Assembly: GCA_014529675.2 (NCBI GenBank)
Contig: CP076040.1
Span: 4,677,501-4,741,500, forward strand
From: Opitutia bacterium ISCC 52
GTDB lineage: Bacteria; Verrucomicrobiota; Verrucomicrobiia; Opitutales; UBA2995
Direction: 5' to 3'
DNA length: 64,000 nucleotides
The translations under genes were made by a program, and so were the position numbers. The notes under the pieces were generated by a model. It saw only the letters and a list, made by a program, of their open reading frames with translations, made no database searches and was not told where the DNA came from. Shown piece after piece: positions 3,409-11,759 of the stretch. Positions within the stretch are counted from its first letter, which is position 1; each line of letters begins with the position of its first letter.

Positions 3409-4338
3409 CTACCCCTGTTCAGCCATCCAGCGTTCTGCCTCAATCGCGGCCTGACATCCCATGCCCGCGGCTGTGATCGCCTGTCGGAATACATGGTCAA
3501 CGCAATCCCCTGCCACATACACACCTGGTACGTTGGTTCGGATCTGGCTCCCTGGTTCAGCTAAGAAGTAGCCATTCTCATCCGTCTTCAAGGCATCCGC
3601 AAATGCCTGAGTGTTAGGGATGTGTCCGATTGCGATAAATGCTCCTTTGCAAGGAATGGTCTTTTCCTCACCTGTCTTAAGGTTTTTTACTGAAACACCG
3701 GAAACAGCTCCGTCATCAGCCCCTTCAATCTTAGTTACTCCAGAGTCCCAGCACATCTCGATCTTCTCGTTGGCGAGAGTTCGGTCTGCCATTATCTTGG
3801 AGGCCCTTAACTCGTCTCTGCGATGAATTAAGGTCACTTTCGATGCAAAGCGTGTGAGGAAAAGAGCTTCTTCGCAGGCTGAGTCTCCTCCACCTACTAC
3901 TACTACATCCATATCCCGGTAGAAGGCTCCATCGCAGGTGGCGCATGTGGATACTCCGCCCGTTCCGAAAAGTTTCTTTTCCGAATCGAGGCCTAGCAAA
4001 CGCGGGGAAGCACCCGTTGAAATGATCACGGTCTTCGCTTCATAGGTTTTATCGCCTGCCTTCAGGATTTTAACATCACCGGAAAAATCGACTGAATCGA
4101 TCAGGTTGTTTTCGAAGCGGGTTCCAAAACGGGTGGCTTGTTTCCTTAGGTTATCCATCAGTGAGTAACCATCGATTCCTTCCGGCCAGCCGGGGAAGTT
4201 TTCCACTTCCGAGGTTGTGGTAAGCTGTCCACCTGGCTGGTTACCTTCGATTACCAAAGGGTTCAGGTTTGCTCTGCCAGTGTAAATAGCCGCGGTTAAT
4301 CCGGCGCAGCCGGTTCCAACAATGATGACGTTTTCCAT
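3409..4338 (-). CDS. trxB: Thioredoxin-disulfide reductase
   Basis: At 309 residues this is a normal low-molecular-weight thioredoxin reductase. The FAD dinucleotide motif is GTGCAG at residues 8-13, where the usual proline is cysteine. The redox-active pair lies in CATC at 132-135, the NADPH motif is [13 protein letters not shown], and the C-terminal FAD motif is [11 protein letters not shown]. It reduces thioredoxin with NADPH in the cytosol. It is transcribed towards the suf operon on the same strand, with about 115 bp and a weak hairpin between them, so it is probably a separate unit. Confidence 0.96.
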
Positions 4339-8970: not shown

Positions 8971-11304
8971 ATGGTTTCTTTGATTCAGCGATATACAAAT
9001 TGGTTGCACACTAAATGGCCCTCCGGGTTGGTCGAGAAACTACCTGAGACGGATGAGAACGGTAAAACGGCTGTGCCTGGGGTGAGGATCGTTGGTGACC
9101 TGACAGGTATCCCTCTCCTAAAGTTTTCATCGGATTCGGGAGCAAAGGCTGTTCAAGGCATATTGGCTGAAGCAGACTTTCCCAGCCAACGAGGAGAGGA
9201 AGGGGTTCTGGACTTAGCCATCATAGGGGGTGGAGTGAGTGGATACGCGGCAGCCATTGAAGCCAAAAAGTCCGGACTCAATTTCCGGTTGTATGAAGCA
9301 GTCCAGGACTTTTCGACCGTTGCGAATTTTCCCAAGAAGAAACCCATATATACTTACCCGACCGATATGACCCCTGCCGGAGTATTGCAGTTTAAGGCGG
9401 ATGTTAAGGAGGGACTTCTTGCTGAGTTAGAAGCTCAACGCAAAGAGCATGGCGTTGAATCTCAACTTCTCAGAGTAGAGAGAATTGAACGCAAAGATGG
9501 GCGACTTTTGTTACATGCGAACGATAAAGACCCTATACCTGCATTACGGGTTATTGTAGCGATTGGGCAAAGTGGAAACTTTCGGAAGCTCAATGTGCCA
9601 GGAGAAGAACTTGGCAAGGTGAGTAATCGTTTACATGACCCCAAAGAGTTCGCTAACAAGCAGGCCTTGGTGGTTGGGGGAGGGGACTCCGCTTTGGAAA
9701 CTGCAATCGCACTGGTGTGCTGCGGCTCTCATGTAACTTTGAGTTATCGGAAATCAGAGTTCTCCCGACCCAAGCCAGACAATGTTGAAAAGCTGCAGGC
9801 TTTGGAAAAAGATGCCGCACATCCGACAGCCATAAAGACTCCTACTTCAGAGCGAGTAACAACCGCCGCCAATTCGGAAATGCGAGGAGAGAATGACTTG
9901 GGATCTCTTCGTCTATTTATGGGTAGCCAGGTGAAAGCGATCAGCGAGGCGCAGGTCGAATTGGAAACCGCTTCCGGCCAGTCAGAGCACGTTGAGAATG
10001 ACGCCGTTTTTGTTATGACGGGCCGCGAGGCTCCTTTAGATTTTTTCAGACGTTCAGGACTCCCTATCCTTGGTGAATGGCGGCGAAAGACCTGGATAGG
10101 TTTCATCAGTTTCTTCGCCTTTTGTCTGTTTGTATATCATTGGAAAAGCGGTGGTTGGTTGAGTGGTCTATTTTCTGGAAAGGGATGGTTTCCTTTTTTC
10201 CTTCCTAGCGGAGATCCAAAGTCGTTGATCGGTTCGATTATGAACGCCTCTCGGGATCCGGGATTCTATTATTCTTTGGTATATACCACCTGTATTGTTG
10301 TCTTTGGTGCTCAACGTATTCGGCGAAGGAAGACCCCCTACGTGACTCGGCAGACGCTTTCTCTGATGTCTTTCCAAGTCATTCCGTTGTTTCTGCTGCC
10401 TTATATCTTTCTCCCATGGATGGGGCATAATGGTATATTCGATGTCGGATTTGGACAGTGGATTGGCGACTCATTCTTCCCTGATGAAAGCTATTGGCGA
10501 GCCTTTGGACTTATCCTGGCATGGCCTTTATTTATATGGAATGTATTTACGGATCAACCTGTATGGGGGTGGCTGATACTTTCATTGATACAAACCTTTG
10601 TAATCATCCCTTGGATAGTGCGCCGTTGGGGAAAGGGTGCGTATTGCGGATGGGTATGCAGTTGCGGCGCTTTGGCCGAAACTCTTGGAGATACCCATCG
10701 TCACAAAATGCCTCATGGGCCTTTTTGGAACCGGCTAAATATGGTGGGGCAGGTGGTTCTGGCTTTGGTCTTTATTCTCTTTTTTCTGAGAGTCATTGGG
10801 TGGATATTTCCAGGAAGTTTTGCAGGAGCCTTGTATGAGGGATTCCTTTCAAAGTATCCGGTTGTTAACTACAAATACATCGTCGATTTGTGGTTCGCAG
10901 GGATTTTGGGAGTCACTTTCTATTTTCATTTTTCTGGTCGAATCTGGTGTCGGTTTGCCTGCCCCCTTGCGGCGCTCATGCACATCTACGCTAGGTTTAC
11001 CCAATTTCGAATCTTCTCGGATAAGAAGAAATGTATCTCCTGCAACGTTTGCACGTCAGTGTGTCACCAAGGGATCGATGTCATGAACTTTGCGAACAAA
11101 GGTCTTCCGATGGAAGATCCCGAGTGCGTGCGTTGTTCCGCCTGCGTGCAGAGTTGCCCAACGGGTGTGCTAAATTTCGGTCGTTTTGCCCAGGGCGGAG
11201 AAGTAGTCTTTGATACAGTGGCGGCCTCTCAAGTCCAGATTCAGGAGCAGAACTCATTAAATGGCTTTCTCAAAGATATAAAGCGCTTGGACCCCGGAGT
11301 TTAG
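8971..11304 (+). CDS. Membrane redox protein: circularly permuted-looking flavoprotein reductase fused to NapH/CcoG-like polyferredoxin
   Basis: The protein has 777 residues. Residues ~36-60 (VPGVRIVGDLTGIPLLKF) match the segment that usually ends TrxR-like flavoproteins. The FAD motif IIGGGVSGYAAA follows at 84-95, and the NADPH motif [12 protein letters not shown] lies near 232. A membrane region of about six segments starts near 375. It holds CGWVCSCGALAE and CRFACPLAALM, as in NapH and CcoG. Two 4Fe-4S motifs (CISCNVCTSVCHQ and CVRCSACVQSCPTG) close the protein at ~688-735. It probably moves electrons from NAD(P)H across or into the membrane; the acceptor is unknown. It ends 155 bp before a small membrane protein that may be a partner. 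Confidence 0.85.
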   Translation: MVSLIQRYTNWLHTKWPSGLVEKLPETDENGKTAVPGVRIVGDLTGIPLLKFSSDSGAKAVQGILAEADFPSQRGEEGVLDLAIIGGGVSGYAAAIEAKKSGLNFRLYEAVQDFSTVANFPKKKPIYTYPTDMTPAGVLQFKADVKEGLLAELEAQRKEHGVESQLLRVERIERKDGRLLLHANDKDPIPALRVIVAIGQSGNFRKLNVPGEELGKVSNRLHDPKEFANKQALVVGGGDSALETAIALVCCGSHVTLSYRKSEFSRPKPDNVEKLQALEKDAAHPTAIKTPTSERVTTAANSEMRGENDLGSLRLFMGSQVKAISEAQVELETASGQSEHVENDAVFVMTGREAPLDFFRRSGLPILGEWRRKTWIGFISFFAFCLFVYHWKSGGWLSGLFSGKGWFPFFLPSGDPKSLIGSIMNASRDPGFYYSLVYTTCIVVFGAQRIRRRKTPYVTRQTLSLMSFQVIPLFLLPYIFLPWMGHNGIFDVGFGQWIGDSFFPDESYWRAFGLILAWPLFIWNVFTDQPVWGWLILSLIQTFVIIPWIVRRWGKGAYCGWVCSCGALAETLGDTHRHKMPHGPFWNRLNMVGQVVLALVFILFFLRVIGWIFPGSFAGALYEGFLSKYPVVNYKYIVDLWFAGILGVTFYFHFSGRIWCRFACPLAALMHIYARFTQFRIFSDKKKCISCNVCTSVCHQGIDVMNFANKGLPMEDPECVRCSACVQSCPTGVLNFGRFAQGGEVVFDTVAASQVQIQEQNSLNGFLKDIKRLDPGV

Positions 11305-11459: not shown

Positions 11460-11759
11460 ATGAAGTCAGCTCTAGAGTCCATACAGTACTGGTTTATGAA
11501 ACACGGTACGTCCGACAACATCACCACTTTTGCAATTATCATAGTGGGAATCATTTTGGTGGTCATGGTATATAGAATACTGAAGTCCTTCCATACATCG
11601 ATGGTCTTTTTCGTTCTTGGATTGTTGGGGATTGGGGTGTTTCTCTACTGGGTGCATAATCGCAACGAACCCGATTTCATGACACCATCTGTAGAAGCTG
11701 TGGCCGGTTTCCTTCCCAAGAAGGACGCCCTTCTTAGGGAGGTAGATACTCCTAAATAG
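11460..11759 (+). CDS. Small two-helix membrane protein, unrecognised
   Basis: This 99-residue protein has two clear hydrophobic segments, at about residues 23-42 (TTFAIIIVGIILVVMVYRI) and 49-65 (MVFFVLGLLGIGVFLYW), followed by a polar tail ending LREVDTPK. No family is recognised. It follows the flavoprotein-ferredoxin gene on the same strand after 155 bp, so a link to that redox complex is possible but unproven. Confidence 0.6.
   Translation: MKSALESIQYWFMKHGTSDNITTFAIIIVGIILVVMVYRILKSFHTSMVFFVLGLLGIGVFLYWVHNRNEPDFMTPSVEAVAGFLPKKDALLREVDTPK

Follow-up and report, generated by a model that had tools for sequence, protein, structure and literature searches.

The closest described relatives of the flavoprotein core examined here, in both sequence and fold, are the YpdA/Bdr bacillithiol disulfide reductases (TIGR04018; PDB 7a76, 7a7b, and 7apr). 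These are soluble proteins with an FAD-NADPH-FAD domain order and a C-terminal GD segment. Low-Mr thioredoxin reductases (TrxRs) and TrxR-type ferredoxin-NADP reductases share the two-dinucleotide-domain fold. NapH/MauN proteins (TIGR02163) combine transmembrane (TM) helices bearing C-x3-C motifs with two C-terminal [4Fe-4S] motifs. In GltD-type proteins, which are soluble and not permuted, ferredoxin, FAD, and NADPH parts share a single chain, so that a TrxR-like flavoprotein is coupled with two [4Fe-4S] clusters. To our knowledge, a natural circular permutation of the pyridine-nucleotide-reductase fold that is conserved across many phyla has not been reported. No earlier description was found in the literature searched, which did not extend to most subscription papers (PMC4432964 was unrelated), and no family for the permuted protein was found in Pfam or NCBIfam.

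The window analyzed is a stretch of 64,000 nucleotides from Opitutia bacterium ISCC 52. On its forward strand, an intact open reading frame at positions 8971 to 11304, with an ATG start, encodes 777 residues that comprise a permuted flavoprotein, a six-TM NapH-like part, and two [4Fe-4S] motifs. The 4.8-Mb single-contig genome has just one copy of the gene, and the next-best match in it is an ordinary TrxB (3409 to 4338). A frameshift or a misjoining of genes was ruled out by the single open frame, which is identical in a 95%-identical relative. A 99-aa small membrane protein with no clear family in Pfam or NCBIfam is encoded downstream of the gene (window positions 11460 to 11759), and the nearest Opitutales relatives (L003, L004, and L008) also have an ORF of this size on the downstream side. 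The Rfam search gave no match.

Compared with the described systems, the protein shares the YpdA/Bdr fold of the FAD and NADPH domains (Z of 19.5 against 7a7b), but its GD segment is found only at the N terminus, and Fe-S and membrane modules are fused at the cut. It scored 111.8 bits with the YpdA profile, against a curated cutoff of 339.9, and the FAD-NADPH-FAD order with a C-terminal GD segment is absent, so that it is not a member of YpdA/Bdr. Residues ~22 to 68 are homologous to the C-terminal GD segment of low-Mr TrxRs; in contrast to the TrxR and ferredoxin-NADP reductase proteins, the domain order differs, the chain is membrane bound, and it carries its own ferredoxin. The sequence-only reading had described a NapH-like membrane part with two clusters, and a NapH match of 56.1 bits was obtained on residues 537 to 736. 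This score is below the curated cutoff of 213, which argues against membership in NapH/MauN, although the chain does share with NapH/MauN its two C-terminal [4Fe-4S] motifs after the TM helices. Of the two C-x3-CP motifs of NapH/MauN, only the second (CxxxCP, residues 660 to 665) is found here, the first being replaced by CGWVCSCG, and the chain, unlike NapH/MauN, contains its own NAD(P)H dehydrogenase. The protein also matched PRK12771 weakly, and it resembles the GltD arrangement in placing two clusters and a TrxR-like flavoprotein on one chain, whereas GltD is neither permuted nor membrane bound.

Evidence for the circular permutation

The chain begins with a conserved helix (residues 2 to 15, positions 8974 to 9015), the start of a Y..WLHT.WPAG.VEKLP stretch. 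The displaced GD segment (residues 22 to 68, positions 9034 to 9174) follows, with a strand at residues 38 to 40, GD at 42 and 43, and a helix at 50 to 66; residues 35 to 52 read VPGVRIVGDLTGIPLLKF. The FAD-binding beta-alpha-beta unit with its GGGVSG motif (residues 80 to 110, positions 9208 to 9300) contains the first GxGxxG as IIGGGVSG at residues 84 to 91. Next is the NAD(P)H-binding domain (residues ~225 to 348, positions 9643 to 10014), with GGGDSA at residues 236 to 241 and SYRKSEFSR, which holds NADPH-type arginines, at 258 to 266.

Sequence comparison identifies the flavoprotein as a genuine circular permutant of the YpdA/TrxR type, with residues ~22 to 68 homologous to the strand-GD-helix end of TrxR and YpdA. 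The Pfam Pyr_redox_2 match covered residues 81 to 366 and ended at profile position 251 of 291; because the last 40 profile positions are missing from the match, the GD end is absent on the C-terminal side. When residues 22 to 69 were placed behind residues 70 to 372 in silico, the Pyr_redox_2 score rose from 85.4 to 100.7 bits and the match reached profile position 281, while a control with the same segment shuffled scored 84.6 bits. The YpdA score likewise rose from 111.8 to 121.4 bits. Re-permutation of a divergent relative (L091) raised Pyr_redox_2 from 67.0 to 88.2 bits and YpdA from 109.1 to 134.1 bits, with the latter match now reaching position 314 of 316.

Two reciprocal profiles gave the same result. 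A profile that was built from the permuted family and limited to the N-terminal segment matched the C-terminal GD segment in all 13 canonical TrxR ORFs and matched N-terminally of the FAD motif in all 170 family ORFs; it found the segment at both ends in none of these 13 and 170 ORFs. Conversely, when a profile of the canonical TrxR C terminus was run against 163 family ORFs, its best match fell within the N-terminal segment in 126 of them; once that segment had been shuffled, this was so in 0 of 163. Because re-permutation with its shuffled control, the segment profile, and the reciprocal profile all agree, chance is excluded as the source of the resemblance.

The AlphaFold2 (AF2) models were consistent with this assignment. 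The full-length model had a pLDDT of 87.5 and a pTM of 0.79, and the flavoprotein module alone (residues 1 to 372) had values of 87.0 and 0.76. In the module alone, with the membrane part removed, the GD strand and helix kept a pLDDT of 91 to 95 and strand 38 to 40 was hydrogen bonded, and since they stay confident without the membrane part, the segment is modeled as packing within the flavoprotein. Residues 1 to 20 fell to a pLDDT of 54 to 65 under the same conditions, and because of this loss of confidence the N-terminal helix is predicted to pack probably on the membrane part. The match of model residues 76 to 372 to canonical YpdA/TrxR chains broke off at about residue 270 of about 320, leaving the last ~50 residues of the canonical chains unmatched at the C-terminal side of the model. 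The alignment of 7a7b with model residues 77 to 370 covered 257 residues at an rmsd of 15.3, which is attributed to a differing angle between the two domains. Foldseek/VIA structure alignments follow the sequence order, and they therefore show just the missing C-terminal end rather than the place of the segment.

These results bear out the sequence-only reading, which had placed the GD segment ahead of the FAD motif and proposed a permuted reductase: residues ~22 to 68 precede the motif at 84 to 91, residues 30 to 66 fold confidently with the flavoprotein alone, and no second GD motif was found behind the NADPH domain by the Pfam match, re-permutation, or the segment profile. A chance motif or extra domain at the N terminus, joined with simple loss of the C-terminal end, could appeal to the shortness of the motif but is very improbable given the specific homology in both directions, the conservation in 170 ORFs, the negative shuffled controls, and the folding of the segment with the flavoprotein alone in AF2.

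Conserved residues and membrane topology

Conservation was read over 79 members. In the GD segment, P25, G37, G42, G46, P48, and L49 are invariant and D43 is nearly so, and the FAD and NAD(P)H glycine motifs are conserved. The NADPH domain contains no redox-active CxxC and no invariant cysteine in the 79 members, and membership in the thioredoxin reductases was rejected on the lack of the CxxC. The cofactor is likely NADPH, because SYRK occupies the place of the HRRxxxR of TrxR. In the divergent branch of proteins with this domain order (type I, below; L091 from G001, L025:1018-3369, L114, and L134), the 2'-phosphate site has no SYR motif, for example VTIDKELIFPKKRN, and these proteins perhaps prefer NADH.

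The membrane part (positions 10084 to 10935) has six TM helices, predicted at about residues 372 to 392, 430 to 453, 462 to 484, 532 to 553, 591 to 612, and 634 to 652. They were taken from the helices of the AF2 model; hydropathy alone missed TM1 and TM2. From the modeled TM helices and the distribution of Lys and Arg, the flavoprotein and ferredoxin are both predicted on the positive, cytosolic side. CGWVCSCG (residues 559 to 566, positions 10645 to 10668) has C559, C563, and C565 on the cytosolic membrane face. CRFACP (residues 660 to 665, positions 10948 to 10965) contains C660, C664, and an invariant P665, forming a C-x3-CP motif as in NapH-type proteins. The ferredoxin part has two motifs of the CX2CX2CX3C type, CISCNVCTSVC (residues 688 to 698, positions 11032 to 11064) and CVRCSACVQSC (residues 719 to 729, positions 11125 to 11157). 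All five membrane-face cysteines and all eight cluster cysteines are invariant in the 79 members. No heme b is expected, because the TM part has no conserved histidine pair, and no heme or quinone site was identified within the six-TM part.

Architectures and distribution of the permuted family

The sequence-only reading had called for a search for the same architecture in other genomes, and it was found widely. The permutation is family-wide and occurs in at least five architectures, in which the Fe-S modules are always at the same cut. Type I (GD-FAD-NADPH-six TM-2[4Fe-4S]) includes the gene at 8971 to 11304 and a divergent branch (L025, L091, L115, and L134). Type II, of about 440 to 530 aa, has the order TM-2[4Fe-4S]-GD-FAD-NADPH and is found on an Emticicia plasmid (WP_015031197) and in Myxococcota. 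In type III (L125 and L127), a multi-TM part precedes a type II arrangement; Pfam names no family for this part, which by eye is like a separate 281-aa Emticicia protein and a b-type cytochrome. Type IV (L131, L135, and L137) has four CxxCH motifs and a TM helix ahead of a type II arrangement. Type V (L185:3993-7505, L186:2003-5257, and L187:2869-6108; about 1,080 to 1,170 aa) has an FHA-like start, a TM stretch, approximately eight CxxCH motifs, a second TM stretch, 2[4Fe-4S], and GD-FAD-NADPH, the FHA label and TM count being read from the sequence rather than taken from a tool. In ten representatives scanned, the Pyr_redox_2 match ended at profile position 249 to 259 of 291. The N-terminal stretches of L017 and L022, which were considered as bigger fusions, were read as frame extensions of GC-rich DNA.

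In nearly all type II and III proteins, the second Fe-S motif of the N-terminal ferredoxin has His for the second Cys (C-x2-H-x2-C-x3-C, e.g., CVGHGACFHACP; L102, L116, L119, L120, L125 to L130, L132, L136, and L138 to L143), and the first motif often has Ser, Thr, or Gly at the second-Cys position. From these motifs, a His-ligated cluster is possible in type II and III proteins.

Of the 157 relatives detected in a search of GTDB genomes, the 80 best ones, which were full length or nearly so, were retained. The best 80 came from Verrucomicrobiota, Planctomycetota, Acidobacteria, Gemmatimonadetes, Latescibacterota, Myxococcales, Caldithrix, Dadabacteria, and Omnitrophota records, and one relative lies on a chromid-sized plasmid of Pseudoalteromonas. 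Only 16 of 289 Verrucomicrobiota genomes carry the gene, a patchy distribution that suggests transfer or loss. Permuted proteins were also detected with a junction profile (A2) made of the GD segment and the FAD motif. It found them in 44 of 141 genomes in the phylum of a Myxococcales MAG, 31 of 119 in that of a Planctomycetaceae MAG, 24 of 149 in that of an Acidobacteria MAG, 32 of 64 in that of a Gemmatimonadetes MAG, and 7 of 145 Verrucomicrobiota genomes, that is, in about 5% to 50% of the sampled genomes across five phyla. In the tree, the permuted proteins were separated from canonical TrxRs at 100/100, with types II to IV nested inside a type I grade. With TrxRs as the only canonical outgroup, a single origin of the permutation is not contradicted, nor is it proven.

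Proposed electron transfer and gene neighborhoods

The protein is probably an integral-membrane flavo-iron-sulfur oxidoreductase with a permuted YpdA/TrxR core, which would pass electrons from NAD(P)H through FAD and two [4Fe-4S] clusters to a membrane acceptor. In the permuted module, a short linker (residues 66 to 80) joins the old termini, the new ends lie at the second NADPH-to-FAD crossover, and the Fe-S/membrane module is attached at this opening. Assuming that the cofactors are bound, NAD(P)H would reduce FAD by hydride transfer, FAD would hand single electrons to the two cytosolic clusters, and these would in turn reduce an acceptor, most likely a quinone, at the six-helix NapH-like part.

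A putative transmembrane NAD(P)H electron conduit, as suggested by the sequence-only reading, is the best-supported function of the permuted family, because the heme-bearing sister forms share the permuted core. The sister proteins that carry this core behind a multi-TM part, behind four CxxCH motifs, or behind eight such motifs flanked by TM stretches all strengthen the suggestion. Since the hemes of type V are placed between two TM stretches with the flavin and Fe-S motifs on the other side, passage of NAD(P)H electrons across the membrane is the simplest reading. On the basis of homology, type I is expected to deliver electrons from NAD(P)H via two clusters to the six-TM part, and quinone is the most economical guess for its acceptor.

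The main rival to quinone is a thiol-type transmembrane reductase, in which C559, C563, C565, C660, and C664 would relay electrons across the membrane to repair enzymes of the periplasm, for instance methionine sulfoxide reductases. The invariance of these five cysteines is in its favor, as are the Msr neighbors: L016 and L020 have an MsrA-matching protein with a hydrophobic N terminus immediately upstream, as well as neighbors with PMSR and SelR domains, and in L115 an MsrA adjoins a divergent relative. However, Msr neighbors occur at only three of about 80 loci, the cysteines could equally bind a cluster, and the flavoprotein has no conserved CxxC; we regard such a relay as unlikely. A little less likely still is a reversed chain acting as a reverse-electron-transfer enzyme, in which a quinol or periplasmic donor would reduce the Fe-S clusters and FAD would reduce NAD(P)+. 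In its favor, the membrane part is most closely related to NapH-type proteins, which take electrons from quinol (NapGH), but reduction of NAD(P)+ from quinol is uphill without energy input, and no ion-pumping subunits or partners are conserved beside the gene.

Returning to the conduit, we lean toward regarding these proteins as a large, unnamed superfamily whose permutation provides a standard site for grafting, presumably beside the flavin, where swappable membrane modules could be added to make single-chain transmembrane conduits. The NapH-like, multi-TM, and multiheme modules could link the cytosolic NAD(P)H pool to periplasmic or membrane acceptors. A structural reason is suggested, as the cut makes the crossover between the domains available for fusion. 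The family is a known fold and a known module set in a new arrangement with an unusual evolutionary logic. Proteins that now carry just the annotation "NAD(P)-binding domain-containing protein" thereby gain a likely role, and single chains of this kind may be a recurrent means by which Planctomycetota, Myxococcota, Acidobacteriota, Verrucomicrobiota, and Gemmatimonadota connect NAD(P)H with multiheme cytochromes or the membrane.

As further support for the conduit, cytochromes with 23 to 40 CxxCH motifs are encoded beside some type II genes, together with CcsA in Emticicia. The Emticicia plasmid pEMTOL02 (L102:3692-16276) carries an electron-transfer cluster of CcsA, a multi-TM protein, the permuted flavoprotein, and cytochromes with 23 and 40 CxxCH motifs, with beta-barrel and Rieske genes nearby. 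The neighbors of type I genes are mixed, with glycosyltransferases accounting for 16 of the 63 scanned, together with DUF547, glutamate dehydrogenase, DUF3179, and MsrA/B; no single conserved partner was found among them, and none names an acceptor. In several Planctomycetota loci (L016, L020, L025, L042, L046, and L049), the type I gene is followed by a same-strand glutamate dehydrogenase gene, which may hint at NAD(P)H supply.
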